Assembly: GCA_023954815.1 (NCBI GenBank)
Contig: JAGSHB010000040.1
Coordinates: 1-37,888 of the forward strand
Source of the DNA: Myxococcales bacterium
Lineage (GTDB): Bacteria > Myxococcota_A > UBA9042
DNA length: 37,888 nucleotides
Reading direction: 5' to 3'
Position numbers and translations under genes: made by a program. The first letter of the stretch is position 1. Every line of letters starts with the position of its first letter. The notes below the pieces were generated by a model, which worked only from the letters and a program-made list of their open reading frames with translations, was not told the origin of the DNA and did no database searches. Below are positions 29,276 to 35,659 of this stretch, in pieces.

Positions 29276-31657
29276 ATGCAGACTGCTCAATTGCCCGTCA
29301 TTCCGCTTCGCGGCGTCGTGGTATTTCCCCAAATGGTCGCTTCCCTCTTCGTGGGTCGGCCGCGTTCCTCCGCTGCCCTTGAGGCGGCGCTGGCACGTGA
29401 AGACAAGGCCATCGTCTTGGTGGCTCAGATCAACGCGCGGGACAATGACCCCGCCGCTGGTGATCTGTACGACGTCGCCTGTTTGGCGCAGGTCGACAAG
29501 GTGCTGCGGTTGCCCGACGGCACGATGAAAGTGAGCGTGCAGGGCGTCGACCGCGTGCGCGTGCAGTCGCTCTCTCCCGAGGGGGAGTTCTTGAGCGCCG
29601 TGGTGAGCCCGCTGAGCGCCGAGATGGAGATTGGACCTATCGAAGGCGACCCCGTCGAAGAGCTGGTTGGGCGCGTTCGCACTGCTTTTGAGGCCTTTGC
29701 GCGCGCAAGCCGCCGGGTGCCGCCGGAGGTGGTGGCGAGTGTCATCTCGATTGAAGAGTCCGGTCACTTGGCCGATATGGTCGCCGCTCACATGGGCCTG
29801 AAGGTCGGTGAACGCCAGCAGATCTTGGCCTTGTTACCCCTCCTGCCGCGGCTCGCTCGCTTGTTGGAGCTGATCGAGGCCGAGACTGAGGTCGCCAACG
29901 TCGAGCGTCGGATCCGCAAGAAGGTCGGCGTCACAGAGAGCGCTGGTCCGCGGGTCGGTGGCGACGAGAGTGAGGGGGACGAGTTCAAGAGTGAGCTCGA
30001 AGATCTCGCCCGTGAAATCACCGACAAAGACCTGCCCGACGAGGCCAAACAGCGGCTGGAGCGCGAGTTCCGCAAGCTCAAGATGATGAACCCCATGTCG
30101 GCGGAATCCGGCGTGCTGCGAACCTACATCGACTGGGTGCTGAGCCTGCCCTGGTCGGAGATGAGCGAGGACGTGCTCGACATCGTCGAGGCGCAGCGGG
30201 TCCTGGACGCGGATCACTACGGCTTGGAAAAGGCCAAAGAGCGCATCATCGAGTACTTGGCGGTGCAGCAGCTCACCGGCGGCGTCGGAAAGGGCCCGAT
30301 CCTCTGTCTCGCTGGTCCTCCCGGCGTCGGTAAGACGTCCTTGGCCAAGAGCATCGCTCGGTCGACGGGTCGCAAGTTCGTGCGCATCAGCCTCGGCGGT
30401 GTGCGCGATGAGGCCGAGATTCGCGGTCACCGGCGGACCTACGTCGGCGCGCTGCCCGGCAAGATCATCCACGCGCTGAAAAAGGCGGGCACGTCCAATC
30501 CGGTCATCTTGCTCGACGAGATCGATAAGATGAGCATGGACTTCCGGGGTGATCCGAGCTCGGCGCTGCTCGAAGTGCTCGATACGGAGCAAAACGAGGC
30601 CTTTGTCGATCACTACATCGACCTGGATTACGATCTGAGCAAGGTCTTGTTCGTCGCCACGGCCAACTTCCTGCAGTCGATTCCGATCCCGCTCAAGGAC
30701 AGGCTCGAGATCATTGAGCTCGGCGGCTACACCGAGCTCGATAAGCTGCAGATCGCCAAGCAGTACCTGGTGCCGCGGCAGGTCAAGGACAACGGCCTGT
30801 CCGACATCGACGTGAAGTTCTCCGAGGAGACCCTCAAGCTGCTCATCGGTAGCTACACGCGAGAAGCCGGTGTGCGCTCTTTGGAGCGGCAAATCGGCGG
30901 TGTTTGCCGGAAACTGGCTCGTGAATCCCTGGAGACCAAGCGCAAGCGCAAGCGTCTTCGCATCACGCCGAACAAGGCCCGCAAGCTGCTCGGCGCCGAG
31001 AAGTTCACCGACCGGGCCCACGAGGGCAAAGACCGGATGGGCGTGGTCAACGGCTTGGCTGTGACGTCTGTGGGCGGTGATTTGCTGCAGGTCGAGGTCG
31101 CGGTGTTGCCCGGCAAGGGCAAGCTGACCTTTACCGGCAAGCTCGGCGATGTGATGCAGGAGTCAGTTCAGGCGGCTATGAGCTACGTGCGGGCGCGGGC
31201 TGAGGCGCTGCAGCTCGACAAGACCTTCTACGAAAAGGTCGACGTGCACGTGCACTTCCCGGAAGGCGCCGTGCCGAAGGATGGGCCCAGCGCGGGTATC
31301 GCCATCGCCACAGGTCTGGTCAGCGCGCTGACCCAGGTGCCGGTGCGGTATGACATCGCGATGACCGGCGAAGTGACGTTGCGCGGCCGGGTCCTGCCCA
31401 TCGGCGGACTGAAGCAGAAGGTCATCGCTGCGCACCGAGCCGGCATCCATACGGTGCTCGTGCCGAAGGAAAATGAGCGTCACGTCGAGGACATCCCCAA
31501 GGAAGTGCTCAAGGACATGGAGCTGATCTTTGTCGAGCACGCTGACGAGGTGTTGCGCAACGCCCTGCGGCTCGAAGACGCCAAGGGGTTCCTGCCCGAG
31601 CCCTTCGGCATCAGCGCCGACTACCTCGGTATCTCAACACGACCGACGGCGCACTAG
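29276..31657 (+). CDS. lon: ATP-dependent protease Lon
   Basis: Lon degrades misfolded and regulatory proteins. The 793-residue product has an N-terminal substrate-binding domain starting [16 protein letters not shown], Walker A GPPGVGKT (347-354), Walker [12 protein letters not shown], and the protease domain with Ser672 in [10 protein letters not shown] and Lys715 in [13 protein letters not shown] 29276 follows AGGAGCTCGT. The length is normal for LonA. It ends the tig-clpP-clpX-lon block and converges with the arginase-fold gene. Confidence 0.98.
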
Positions 31658-31659
31658 CG

Positions 31660-31708
31660 CCAGCCCGAACTGCGCTCAAACCTCTGATTATCAGGCAGTT
31701 AGCGCTGG
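31660..31708. terminator. Bidirectional-looking hairpin between lon and the arginase-fold gene
   Basis: CCAGC pairs with GCTGG (31660-31664 with 31704-31708), AACTG with CAGTT (31668-31672 with 31696-31700), with symmetric three-base internal loops. A CTGA/TCAG stem (31684-31694) sits inside. It lies between two convergent stops but lacks a T-run. Confidence 0.4.
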
Positions 31709-31709
31709 G

Positions 31710-32729
31710 TCAGCGCGTCTGGGTGATGTAGCTCCACGCGATGCGTGCGGCCAGTCGCCCGGTCATGCCGTCTCTGTCGAAGCGCGGGTTGAGCCCGTAG
31801 ATACTCAGCTGGGTGGGGCAGGGCGATGACGCCAGGGCCTCGGCACCGCGCACGATGGCGGCCGCGGGGACGCCCGTCGCTATGGGTTCGGCAACGCCGG
31901 GCGCCTGGGCCTGCGACAGCGCGCTCAGGTCGACGCTGAGCGCCACGGCCGTGCATCTCGCCGTCAACGACGACAGCTCATCGAGCAGCGAGGTGGTGGC
32001 TGTGCGCCCCTCGCCAAGGTCGGGCCACCAGCGCATCACGACGCCCTGCTCCCGCAAGAAACGGACGTGCTTGGCGCTGCTCTCGCTGCGCTGAAGTCCC
32101 CATAATACGGTGTTTTCGCCCGAAAGCTGCGAGGCGCTCTCGCCCAACAAGCGACGTATGGCGGTGCCGTCATGGGGCTCGCCTTCGTGCACAAACGCGT
32201 CGGGTCGGGCGTCGATGTTGACCAACCCGCAGCGGGCAGCACCGCCATTGCGCCGAACCCACCGACCGAGGCCGAGGATTTCGCCGTAGAGGTTGTCTTG
32301 GCTGCCGCCGATGACCATGAGTCGTGCCTTGGGAAAACGGCCGCGCAGCACGTCCGTGACCTCGCCGAGTCGGGCGTGGGTCTCGTCGGTGCGACCGGCG
32401 CTGATGAGGTCGCCAGCGTCCAAAATACTGCCCGCCTTCCAGCCCTCTGGCGCATGCAGACGCCAGAAGTACTCACGGAAGCGCTGGGGCCCGTCCACTG
32501 CGCCAAGCCGACTCCCTCGCAGGCCCGCGCCGCGATCGCTCGCTACGCCCAGCAAGATGGCTTGCACGGCGTCAGCGCTCGGGTTGCCCTCCAGCGAGAC
32601 CATGAGGCTGCCCATGCGCAGGTCATCACGGCTGCGCGGCGGGGGCCTGCGGGTCGTGTCGAAGCGCACATAGCGCAAGGTGTCTGTCCCGCCCTTTTTA
32701 GCCGGACCTTCGCCGTCTCGCTTCGCCAT
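31710..32729 (-). CDS. Arginase/agmatinase-fold protein lacking metal ligands
   Basis: The 339-residue product fits the ureohydrolase fold and most resembles the formimidoylglutamase/agmatinase branch. It keeps the order of the three metal motifs but with changes. GGSQDN (141-146) replaces GGDHS or GGGHE, so the His ligand is Gln144. NIDARPD (171-177) replaces DAHxD, with Arg175 for His. SVDLSALSQAQAPG (265-278) replaces SxDxD-type text, with Ser269 for Asp. Three of six manganese ligands are therefore lost, so hydrolysis of a guanidino substrate is unlikely. ATG 32729 follows AGGAGGCGCGC. Confidence 0.8.
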   Translation of the reverse strand: MAKRDGEGPAKKGGTDTLRYVRFDTTRRPPPRSRDDLRMGSLMVSLEGNPSADAVQAILLGVASDRGAGLRGSRLGAVDGPQRFREYFWRLHAPEGWKAGSILDAGDLISAGRTDETHARLGEVTDVLRGRFPKARLMVIGGSQDNLYGEILGLGRWVRRNGGAARCGLVNIDARPDAFVHEGEPHDGTAIRRLLGESASQLSGENTVLWGLQRSESSAKHVRFLREQGVVMRWWPDLGEGRTATTSLLDELSSLTARCTAVALSVDLSALSQAQAPGVAEPIATGVPAAAIVRGAEALASSPCPTQLSIYGLNPRFDRDGMTGRLAARIAWSYITQTR

Positions 32730-32756
32730 GCGCGCCTCCTGAGTGAAAAACTAGCA

Positions 32757-32792
32757 GCGTGCTGCGACACTCATTTTATTGACGCCGCACGC
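32757..32792 (-). repeat. Stem-loop repeat, copy A
   Basis: GCGTGC-T-GCG pairs with CGC-C-GCACGC around a 16-base loop (32767-32782). The repeat matches copy B (32867-32902) at all but one base. Read on the minus strand it is followed by TAGTTTTT (T-run at 32750-32746), so it could also stop transcription, just before the arginase-fold gene. Confidence 0.7.
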
Positions 32793-32807
32793 AGCCAGGG
32801 ATGGGGA

Positions 32808-32846
32808 AGTCGCGGCTTGCCGCGACTGGGGGCGCTCGTAGCCCCC
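32808..32846. repeat. Two further hairpins between the repeat copies
   Basis: AGTCGCGGC-TT-GCCGCGACT (32808-32827) is a perfect nine-pair stem. It is followed directly by GGGGGC-(seven bases)-GCCCCC (32828-32846). No gene lies in this stretch. Confidence 0.65.
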
Positions 32847-32857
32847 CCATAGAACAG

Positions 32858-32909
32858 AAAAGTAGGAGCGTGCTGCGACACTCATTTTAATGACGCCGCA
32901 CGCTCCTAC
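32858..32909 (-). terminator. Terminator / stem-loop repeat, copy B
   Basis: On the minus strand a 16-pair stem with one mismatch (32909-32894 with 32877-32862) is followed by TTTT (32861-32858). It overlaps the stop codon of the TPR lipoprotein gene and should end its transcript. The inner part is the same repeat as copy A. Confidence 0.75.
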
Positions 32910-34099
32910 GGAACCACTTTCATCTTATACTTTGTCGGGTCCTTGCTCTGGCCTTTGCGCCGCGCATCCTGGCGCAGCAACGCCTTCATCCGCGAGAGCT
33001 GCGCCTTGGACTTGCTGATCCATGCCCCACCCGCGCCAATGCGCGACGCTAGGGCGATGTTTTTCTCAAAGATCACCACCGCCCGTTTGGCGAGATGGCC
33101 CGTATGCTTGAGCAGCTCGTCCTTGTAGGCCTGCTTTGTGAGCTCATCGAGCCCATCGGGCACCTCGGCTTTGTAGATATCGTCGATCAGCCGCGCGTAG
33201 AGGTTGCCGATGCGATACCCCGCCGCCAGGGACCACTTGGGGTGGTGCAGGCGCACCGCGCGGAAGTAGGAGGACTGGGCCTTGAGGAAGAGGTTGGCTT
33301 TGTCCTCCAAGTCGCGGCGCATGCGGGCCACCGGTAGCTTGAAGCGGATGGTCTCAAACAGCTCGCGGTAGATCTCGCCGCGCTGATAGTAGGCCAGCGG
33401 CACCCAGTGACTCGTCGCGACCGGCCGCAAGTCACGGTGCCTATCGTACAGGCGCTGCGTCTTGCGAAACGCCTTATCGGCCGCGTGGATCTTCCCCGCC
33501 AGCTTGAGGTTGAGCCCCTGACGCGTGACCGCCTCCAGGTGATCGAGGACCCCCAGCTCGCCGCCGATGAGCCGGATGACGTCGGGGTCGGTCAGCATGG
33601 CGCCGTAGACGGCGCCGGCCTGTACGTAGCGTTTGCGATAGTGCAGAGATTCGGCCAGCACGAAGACCGCGTCACGGGCGTCTCGACTGCCTGCCCCATG
33701 GCGTGCGGCGTGGCGAAATCGGTCGCTGGCCTCTTTGTATCGGCCGAGGCGCATGAGCCCGAGTCCGGCGTTGTAGCGCACGGCCCCCATGCCTTCGTGA
33801 TCGGGATACTCGCTGGCGATGATGTCGAAGAGCTCGACCGCTTCTTTCCAACGCTTGTCTTTGAATGCGGCGACCGCATCTGATCGCAACACCTCAAAAT
33901 CGCGGACATACACGCGGCGACCTGAGGGGGTCGTGCGCACCTTGAAGACGATGGGCTTGAGCGCAATCGGTTGCGCGCCGCCGCCGCAGCCTGCCGCCAT
34001 GAGGACGGCGAGCATCACGAGCACAGCTGCGCGGGCTGCTGGGAGCGGCGCATGGAGACAAGGCGCGTTGCCGTTTGGCGGGGAGTCCTGGGCCGACAC
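32906..34099 (-). CDS. TPR-repeat lipoprotein
   Basis: I take GTG 34099, five bases after AAGGAG, as the start; GTG 34105 is too close to that site. The 397-residue product has an Ala/Leu signal ending in the lipobox LMAAGC (Cys38). Helical TPR-like repeats follow: AVAAFKDKRWKEAVELFDIIASEYPDHE, then VRYNAGLGLMRLGRYKEASDRF and VFVLAESLHYRKRYVQAGAVY. The C-terminal third is helical with no recognised domain. Such lipoproteins often act in envelope assembly, but the role here is unknown. It follows hisS by about 55 bases and probably shares its transcript. Confidence 0.85.
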   Translation of the reverse strand: MSAQDSPPNGNAPCLHAPLPAARAAVLVMLAVLMAAGCGGGAQPIALKPIVFKVRTTPSGRRVYVRDFEVLRSDAVAAFKDKRWKEAVELFDIIASEYPDHEGMGAVRYNAGLGLMRLGRYKEASDRFRHAARHGAGSRDARDAVFVLAESLHYRKRYVQAGAVYGAMLTDPDVIRLIGGELGVLDHLEAVTRQGLNLKLAGKIHAADKAFRKTQRLYDRHRDLRPVATSHWVPLAYYQRGEIYRELFETIRFKLPVARMRRDLEDKANLFLKAQSSYFRAVRLHHPKWSLAAGYRIGNLYARLIDDIYKAEVPDGLDELTKQAYKDELLKHTGHLAKRAVVIFEKNIALASRIGAGGAWISKSKAQLSRMKALLRQDARRKGQSKDPTKYKMKVVP

Positions 34100-34153
34100 G
34101 CTCACTCCTTATCTGTGGCCAGTTTACAGCTGGTAGCCCATGAATTCAGGCGA

Positions 34154-35479
34154 TTAGTCGGCCAACAGCTTTGAGACCTCGGCGGCCAACGCTGCCCGCG
34201 CCACCTGATGTTGCTCTCCGCGGCCGAGGTGTTTGACCACGACGGTACCCGCCTGCACGTCGTCGGGCCCCACGACCACCGCGAGTGTACACCCGCGCTT
34301 GTCGGCCCGGCGAAACTGTTTCGCCAGCTTGCCTTCCAACGTGCTGACCTCGGTTGCAATTCCGCCGGCGCGCAACTCACTGGCCACGCGCATCGCATCG
34401 GCGCGGGCGGCCGCGTTAAATACCGTCACGAAGGCGGTGGCCCCATGGCTCGCAGCGGTGACCAAGCCGAGCTCACGCAGGGCAGCCAGCAGCCGATCGA
34501 GTCCCAGACTGATGCCCACGGCCGGCACCTCGGTTTTGCCGAACATGCCGATGAGCCCGTCGTACCTGCCGCCACTCATCACCGCGCCCATGGAGCTGAC
34601 CTTGTCGTCGGTCAGGCGGGTCTCGTAGATGACGCCGGTGTAGTAATCCAATCCGCGGGCGATGGTCGGGTCGATGGTCACCCCATCAGCAAATCCCGCG
34701 GCCTGTAGGAGACCGAGCACCTCGCGCAACCTGTCGATCGCTTCCCCAGGACCGACCAGGGCTTCCAGGGCATCGAGGGTCGCTGCGCCACTGTCACCAA
34801 CCGTTGAAAACGCCGTCATCAGTCGGTCGATCGCCTCGGCTTCCAAGCCCACTGCAGCCGCCAACTCTTTGCGAACGCCAGCCTCGCCAACCTTGTCCCA
34901 CTTATCGATAGCGCGCAGGGCGAGCAGCTGCTGCCCGTCGTCGTTCACACCAGCGAAGCCCAACAACGCAGCGAGCAGCCCTCGGTGGTTGAGGTGGATA
35001 CGTGCGCCCTTCACACCCAGATCGCGCAGAATCGACAGGCCGGTGCCCAAGACCTCCGCATCGGCCATGGGGCCTGCCGCACCGACGATGTCGACGTCGC
35101 ACTGCATGAACTCACGAAAACGGCCGCGCTGGGGTTTGTCCGCCCGCCAGACCGGCGCGATGTGATAGCGCCGAAAGGGCACGGGCAGGGCACCGCGGTG
35201 CTGTGCAACCACCCGAGCGAGCGGCACGGTCAGATCGTAGCGCATGGCCACCTGACGCTCGCCGTGATCGGCAAACTGATACAGGAGCTTGTCGCCCTCA
35301 TCGCCGTACTTGCCGGTCAGAATCTCCGCATATTCCAGGGTCGGCGTATCGAGCGGGCTGAAGCCATGGCGCCCGAAGGTCTGCTCGATGGTCCGGATCA
35401 TCTCGCGCCTGGGGATCATGTCCTGGGGCAGGTAGTCGCGGAATCCTTTGAGCGTGCGGGGTGTGATGCGCTTGGCCAT
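34154..35479 (-). CDS. hisS: Histidyl-tRNA synthetase
   Basis: HisRS charges tRNA-His; that tRNA is also in the window (24996). The start ATG 35479 follows GAGGAGG; the frame stays open further upstream but without support. The 441-residue class II enzyme begins ITPRTLKGFRDYLP. It has motif 1/2 text AMRYDLTVPLARV and RYHIAPVWRADKPQRGRFREF, then the histidine-binding ARGLDYYTG and MSGGRYDGLIGMFG, and an anticodon domain ending RADKRGCTLAVVVGPDDV. The length is typical. Confidence 0.97.
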   Translation of the reverse strand: MAKRITPRTLKGFRDYLPQDMIPRREMIRTIEQTFGRHGFSPLDTPTLEYAEILTGKYGDEGDKLLYQFADHGERQVAMRYDLTVPLARVVAQHRGALPVPFRRYHIAPVWRADKPQRGRFREFMQCDVDIVGAAGPMADAEVLGTGLSILRDLGVKGARIHLNHRGLLAALLGFAGVNDDGQQLLALRAIDKWDKVGEAGVRKELAAAVGLEAEAIDRLMTAFSTVGDSGAATLDALEALVGPGEAIDRLREVLGLLQAAGFADGVTIDPTIARGLDYYTGVIYETRLTDDKVSSMGAVMSGGRYDGLIGMFGKTEVPAVGISLGLDRLLAALRELGLVTAASHGATAFVTVFNAAARADAMRVASELRAGGIATEVSTLEGKLAKQFRRADKRGCTLAVVVGPDDVQAGTVVVKHLGRGEQHQVARAALAAEVSKLLAD

Positions 35480-35572
35480 CTCGGGTCCTCCTCGTGGCCG
35501 GCGAGATTGCCCGACGACGGCCTCGCGGGAAAGACCCCACGGAAAAGGGTCACGGGTCTCCTCTATTTGGCA

Positions 35573-35589
35573 AAGTGGTATGACCAGTT
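35573..35589. promoter_or_regulatory. FadR/PdhR-type operator
   Basis: AAGTGGTATGACCAGTT matches the E. coli FadR consensus AACTGGTCNGACCAGTT at all but two informative positions; its core TGGTNNNACCA is the GntR/FadR-family palindrome. It lies in the divergent region between hisS and the FadR-like gene, touching the -35 box of the latter, so binding should repress that gene. Confidence 0.7.
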
Positions 35590-35616
35590 GACAAGTTGAT
35601 GTGTGATTGGTTAAAA
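35588..35616 (+). promoter_or_regulatory. Sigma-70 promoter of the FadR-like gene
   Basis: TTGACA (35588-35593), 17 bases, then TTAAAA (35611-35616). The operator at 35573-35589 overlaps the first two bases of the -35 box. Confidence 0.6.
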
Positions 35617-35659
35617 GACGGCCACCGCCACCCGCTTGAGGTCGCGGCAAGGAGCCATC

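Follow-up and report, generated by a model that had tools for sequence, protein, structure and literature searches.

A HutG-like Protein with Replaced Metal Ligands in Myxobacteria That Carry FTCD or HutF

Introduction

HutG, the formimidoylglutamase, carries out a last step of histidine breakdown. Metal-site loss in proteins of the arginase fold has precedents. An arginase-like protein of Trypanosoma brucei, treated by Hai et al. in 2015, is said to have evolved without the manganese cluster, and in oral Fusobacteriaceae the arginase domain of an ODC/arginase protein, the subject of Mothersole et al. in 2022, has reportedly diverged, with its function lost in some species. MetCb of the Ni-dependent metformin hydrolase MetCaCb is a ureohydrolase pseudoenzyme that has lost its coordinating residues and acts as a protein binder (PMC11271267).

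Here we describe a HutG-like gene in a stretch of 37,888 nucleotides from a Myxococcales bacterium, referred to as the window. The protein has the fold of the HutG enzymes from B. subtilis (3m1r), V. cholerae (1xfk) and T. cruzi (4mxr) at 21–26% identity, and HutG proteins are its best sequence matches. Unlike HutG, it has replacements at three metal ligands, at the ELNP Glu and at the DAHxDxR Arg. In nine intact orthologues this Arg and all six ligands are preserved. The T. brucei protein is reportedly similar in having an arginase fold without a binuclear metal site, whereas the present one is bacterial, derived from hutG, and accompanied by intact orthologues in close relatives and by a visible metabolic correlate. 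The fusobacterial domain is reportedly part of a fusion protein, in contrast to the free-standing HutG found here, whose loss tracks a substitute enzyme. MetCb has its active partner in the same gene cluster, while the genome of the window holds no other PF00491 protein. In the literature searched, which left out most subscription journals, no report of a degenerate HutG tied to FTCD or HutF was found. Arginase-fold pseudoenzymes as such are already in print.

Results and Discussion

The gene is located at 31710..32729 on the minus strand, with an AGGAGG ribosome-binding site ahead of its ATG, and codes for a HutG-like (formimidoylglutamase-family) protein of 339 aa. PF00491 (Arginase) is the sole Pfam family of the protein (E 4.7e-21, 75.9 bits against a cut-off of 22) and is covered nearly whole, from profile position 3 to 277 of 280; the Pfam search revealed no other domain. 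The best NCBIfam model is hutG (TIGR01227), yet the score of 111.3 bits stays below the equivalog cut-off of 229.15, which is also missed by four intact orthologues with 166–180 bits. By sequence, the formiminoglutamases of T. cruzi and V. cholerae are the best solved relatives. An AlphaFold model built from the protein and 19 relatives reached a mean pLDDT of 90.2 and matched B. subtilis HutG best (Z 38.8, rmsd 2.2, 295 aligned residues, 21% identity), followed by HutG of T. cruzi (Z 37.8) and V. cholerae (Z 37.0). The initial annotation had proposed an arginase-fold pseudoenzyme that retains its fold. Retention of the fold and loss of the metal site were confirmed; the origin has to be corrected, since by sequence (T. 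cruzi) as well as by fold (B. subtilis) the protein derives from formimidoylglutamase and not from a generic arginase.

No match was obtained in an Rfam search of 31600–34200, and a promoter scan of 31600–34300 found none. A pattern scan of the genome contigs returned 48 stretches with no relatives among them. Flags for selenocysteine in this gene family could be discarded, as the TGA codons concerned are stops upstream of the start codon.

The replacement of two His ligands and one Asp ligand, as first noticed from the sequence, was verified in the codons and in phmmer, family and wider alignments, where the three positions are stable. Gln144 (32298..32300, minus strand, as for all codons given here) stands in place of the first His, Arg175 (32205..32207) in place of the second His, that of DAHxD, and Ser269 (31923..31925) in place of the last Asp of DxD. 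The motif frames remained recognisable as described before: the phmmer alignment sets GGSQD, DARPD and VDLS of the window protein against GGGHE, DAHFD and IDLD of V. cholerae 1xfk, and in a test for all six ligands (H, D-H-D, D-D) Asp173, Asp177 and Asp267 are kept and three of six are replaced. In addition, Gly312 (31794..31796) occupies the place of the Glu of ELNP, which we take to be catalytic, and Phe179 (32193..32195) that of the DAHxDxR Arg, which most of the examined HutG-like proteins have. This Arg occurs in all nine intact orthologues and in five other myxobacterial HutG-like proteins; the relative G024 and six proteins with arginase-like motifs, a class read by eye, have Asn there. 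We assume that position 144 corresponds to His101 in arginase numbering and is one ligand of the first metal, and that Arg175 and Ser269 presumably replace both private ligands of the second metal. The first His is not decisive by itself, because the solved T. cruzi enzyme has Asn at this position (GGGND), and Asn or Ser also occurs in two other myxobacterial relatives; what counts is the combination of replacements. Judged by these residues, the window gene is predicted to code no longer for a working binuclear manganese hydrolase, and the same holds for its genus. Outside the family, 12 of the 40 genomes with matches in the phylum search were examined. Three other HutG-like proteins (L206, L207 and L208 of the myxobacterial genomes G090, G333 and G228) carry Cys for the first Asp of the DxD pair (CLD) and keep the other five ligands.

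Orthologues were collected from 22 genomes of one myxobacterial GTDB family (f1) with the genera g1 to g9; the window belongs to G000 in g1. All of them are metagenome-assembled genomes (MAGs), and absences may be gaps. The gene is present in 18 of the 22 at 46–71% identity to the window protein; names such as Baikal and Erken suggest a lake origin for the genomes that carry it. All six ligands are kept in nine of the 18 orthologues (g2, g3, five of g6, g7 and g9), and between two and six are lost in the other nine, in differing ways: three of six in each of the three g1 copies, five in G006 of g4, and within g8 six in G013, two in G021, three in G018 and four each in G019 and G010. It had been left to a survey whether orthologues share the substitutions of the window protein. 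They do not: one half has no loss, and in the other the losses vary from lineage to lineage and match the possession of FTCD or HutF. The gene is absent from G007, G016, G001 and G014, the last two being only 67% and 58% complete; in G016 neither the gene nor a close TPR match was found, which may be a gap.

The surroundings of the gene are largely constant. Upstream of it in the window is a gene for a TPR protein with a lipoprotein-like signal, read from the ORF (32906..34105, minus strand); it is the direct upstream neighbour in 17 of 18 genomes, G006 being the exception. The histidyl-tRNA synthetase gene hisS (34154..35650, minus strand) follows past the TPR gene in 14 of 18; the stretches of G009 and G021 end too early, and in G018 none was found over a further 7.7 kb. 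The lon protease gene (29276..31657, plus strand) is convergent, with 52 bp between the two ORFs in the window, and takes this position in seven of 18 genomes (the window's own, G003, G002, G004, G009, G006 and, on a second contig, G005). The 18 HutG-like genes are one resident orthologue whose neighbourhood has mostly been preserved. Only 3 bases separate the end of lon from that of the TPR gene in G007 (g5), where the HutG-like gene is cleanly missing with the TPR gene still there.

In G006 (L160, 1418–5792) the TPR lipoprotein gene lies directly behind hutU and a hutI-like gene, a placement that hints at a part for the TPR protein in histidine use. An element that may form a hairpin occurs twice in the 176-bp gap between TPR and HutG-like gene (32740–32905). 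Common to both is the exact 20-mer AATGAGTGTCGCAGCACGCT, at 32756 and 32867 on the minus strand; each copy is followed by a short T run, and the second stands just before the ribosome-binding site. A terminator or attenuator function is conceivable for the element. Nine other stretches that were checked lack the 20-mer.

The state of HutG coincides with the equipment for histidine degradation. In the family hutU occurs in 18 and hutH in 19 of 22 genomes, and in G000 a hutI-like gene follows hutU. FTCD was found in eight of 22 (G006, G007 and all six g8 genomes), and both FTCD proteins that were scanned passed the FtcD equivalog cut-off. Strong HutF matches of 375–401 bits occur in four genomes (G000, G002, G003, G014), together with two fragments of 188 and 183 bits in G001. 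Weaker matches to the HutF amidohydrolase model are present in all 22; outside the five genomes just named the maximum is 83 bits (G007), and no intact genome exceeds 46. For HutF of G000, one model has a cut-off of 362 bits, which the score of 440 exceeds, and another a cut-off of 413, above the score of 388. FTCD or strong HutF is thus present in none of the nine intact and in all nine degenerate genomes (six FTCD, three HutF), for which a naive one-sided Fisher test gives p = 2e-5, the related genomes not being independent. All four genomes without the gene have FTCD or HutF as well (G001 fragments only). Intact HutG and FTCD/HutF are mutually exclusive in this family, whether FTCD was gained or is ancestral.

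PF05013 (FGase) proteins score 100–142 bits in G000, G002, G003, G009 and G014, and 40 bits in G006. This family was rejected as the main correlate, because one of the genomes with a strong match, G009, has an intact HutG-like protein; strong HutF is absent from it. For the deformylase step after HutF, the PF05013 protein of G000 reaches 28 bits against 279, and its identity is not secure. Two distant types of FTCD exist, the second only in G010 and G019. The other six (G006, L100, 7734–9563; G007; G013; G016; G018; G021) carry an insertion in the formiminotransferase domain, absent in the second type, that starts with CGNC, holds further His residues and by eye is zinc-finger-like.

A tree from six proteins (HutU, HutH, HisS, Lon, ClpX, ClpP) places the degenerate g4 as sister to the intact g2 (93%) and the gene-less g5 as sister to the intact g3 (99%). 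The genus g8 forms a clade (100%) and g1 stands apart, some deeper nodes being weak (37–68%). If lost ligands are never regained, the ligands were lost at least three times independently, with one further loss of the gene.

To explain these observations, we favour, with a probability of roughly 60%, that another formiminoglutamate route released HutG from catalysis and that the protein, now free of metal, persisted because of a binding or scaffolding function which the active form probably also has. FTCD or, in the genome of the window, HutF would take over formiminoglutamate, and HutG catalysis would become redundant. The pocket would be freed and would then drift or be remodelled lineage by lineage. 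The remainder would stay under selection because the folded protein, probably an oligomer like its relatives, would have a role other than catalysis. The role itself would consist in binding or scaffolding a putative partner and would already be present in the active form. It is conservation alone that suggests a non-catalytic role. The role is dispensable in G007, given the clean loss of the gene from between lon and the TPR gene. By position the TPR lipoprotein is the obvious candidate for the partner, though it survives without the HutG-like gene in G007.

If no role were left, the gene would be a slow relic on its way to loss, with frames that are open by chance or by selection against toxic misfolding. 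The clean absence in G007 and the lack of a match in G016, both of which have FTCD, fit such a course, as do the different residues in each lineage and the faster evolution of the degenerate copies relative to HisS (median ratio 1.33 in 15 pairs, compared to 0.93 in 28 intact pairs). Measured against the TPR neighbour, however, they are hardly faster than intact ones (median 0.96 vs 0.85, 36 pairs each). Further, the frames are open in all nine degenerate genomes, where a neutral simulation leads to the expectation of several stops: it left frames open in 2–7% of cases at 0.25 substitutions per site and in at most 1.2% at 0.5. With synonymous sites saturated and YN00 failing for seven of 11 pairs, NG86 gave dN/dS values of 0.17–0.26 among the three g1 species, 0.09–0.27 in three g8 pairs, 0.20 for G006 vs G004 and 0.085–0.28 in four intact pairs. 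No set gave a codon-model omega above 0.08, though the branches are saturated and those of g1 overlong. The open frame and dN/dS well below 1 between degenerate species argue that the protein is under purifying selection after ligand loss, and a mere relic appears unlikely to us. Together with the synteny, they also support that the gene is neither a recent nor a decaying copy; a recent duplicate or pseudogene is ruled out by synteny and the lack of stops.

Comparison of the nine intact proteins gives 132 invariant positions, and 61 of these do not vary in any of the 18. Asn71, Pro190 and Asp269 are replaced in all six degenerate lineages, as we grouped them, and His144, His175, Asn171, His181, Ser187 and Ala281 in five of the six. 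Among these are the ligand positions 144, 175 and 269 as well as two positions of the loop that follows DAHxD, 187 and 190; we read the recurrently replaced set as probable pocket residues, from motifs rather than from coordinates. Ligands are enriched among the changed invariant positions in G006 (p 0.001), G013 (3e-5) and G019 and G010 (0.02), while the enrichment is not significant in g1 (0.12–0.19), G021 (0.21) and G018 (0.06). Leaving out the intact lineages one at a time gave zero changed ligands, a circular result of no evidential weight, as intact was defined by the ligands. A remodelled pocket that runs another reaction, with another metal or none, could account for Q144, S269, F179, A190 and G312 being identical in all three species of g1. 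Precedents for unusual metals or substrates exist within the arginase fold, such as the Ni-dependent metformin hydrolase. The replacements are, however, not alike between g1, g4 and the g8 sublineages, and even within g1 residue 175 is Arg or Glu and residue 281 Glu or Lys. Because of these differences a reaction common to the degenerate lineages is unlikely, and the conserved neighbours TPR, hisS and lon point to no pathway either. We therefore consider a new enzyme improbable.

Even less can be said for a role in sensing or regulating the histidine pathway, in which the protein would still bind formiminoglutamate but leave it uncleaved; we hold this to be very improbable. Arg192, Arg193, Glu184 and Gln213 are invariant in all 18 proteins and could serve such binding, and the position of the TPR partner gene after hutU and the hutI-like gene in G006 would suit it. 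Against this, the Arg at 179 is lost in six of nine degenerate copies including that of the window, the loop 186–191 is rewritten, and the Pfam search gave no further domain in the window protein. Finally, a pseudo-subunit in a mixed oligomer with an active ureohydrolase, exactly the arrangement of MetCb with MetCa (a metformin hydrolase chain also matches our model, Z 34.6), has hardly any chance, as G000 (97% complete) gives a single PF00491 match and only four of nine degenerate genomes (G002, G003, G018, G021) have another such protein. The same single match rules out a second ureohydrolase compensating in G000.

For the favoured binding or scaffolding role, helix 114–131 (32337..32390, minus strand) offers a possible interface. 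Ten of its 18 positions are invariant in all 18 orthologues (p 2.4e-4); as the most extreme of 21 elements this corresponds to about 0.005 after correction, for an element picked after the fact. Seven of the ten invariant positions are absent from three outgroup proteins, and ETHxR, Glu123 and Arg131 are also found in the HutG-like proteins of G288 and G333 outside the family. Since the pattern is partly common to these two, the conservation in part predates the family and may be structural, caused by the fold or the oligomer. A more far-reaching version of the favoured reading, which we put forward tentatively and with the odds somewhat against it, is a moonlighting HutG: its binding role, perhaps involving helix 114–131 and the TPR lipoprotein, would predate and outlive catalysis and would have led to repeated independent conversion into a pseudoenzyme at one locus.

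Conclusion

For nine of the 18 genes of this family, an automatic label of the kind "formimidoylglutamase" or "arginase family protein" would be misleading. If HutG is indeed a moonlighting protein, the active site was discarded at each takeover by another route and the second role was usually kept. The origin of pseudoenzymes is usually guessed from single end points. Here, close relatives show one gene intact, in partial or full degradation, and deleted, and the probable cause, a substitute enzyme, can be read from the genomes. The succession of steps can therefore be tested, as can a second function hidden in HutG.
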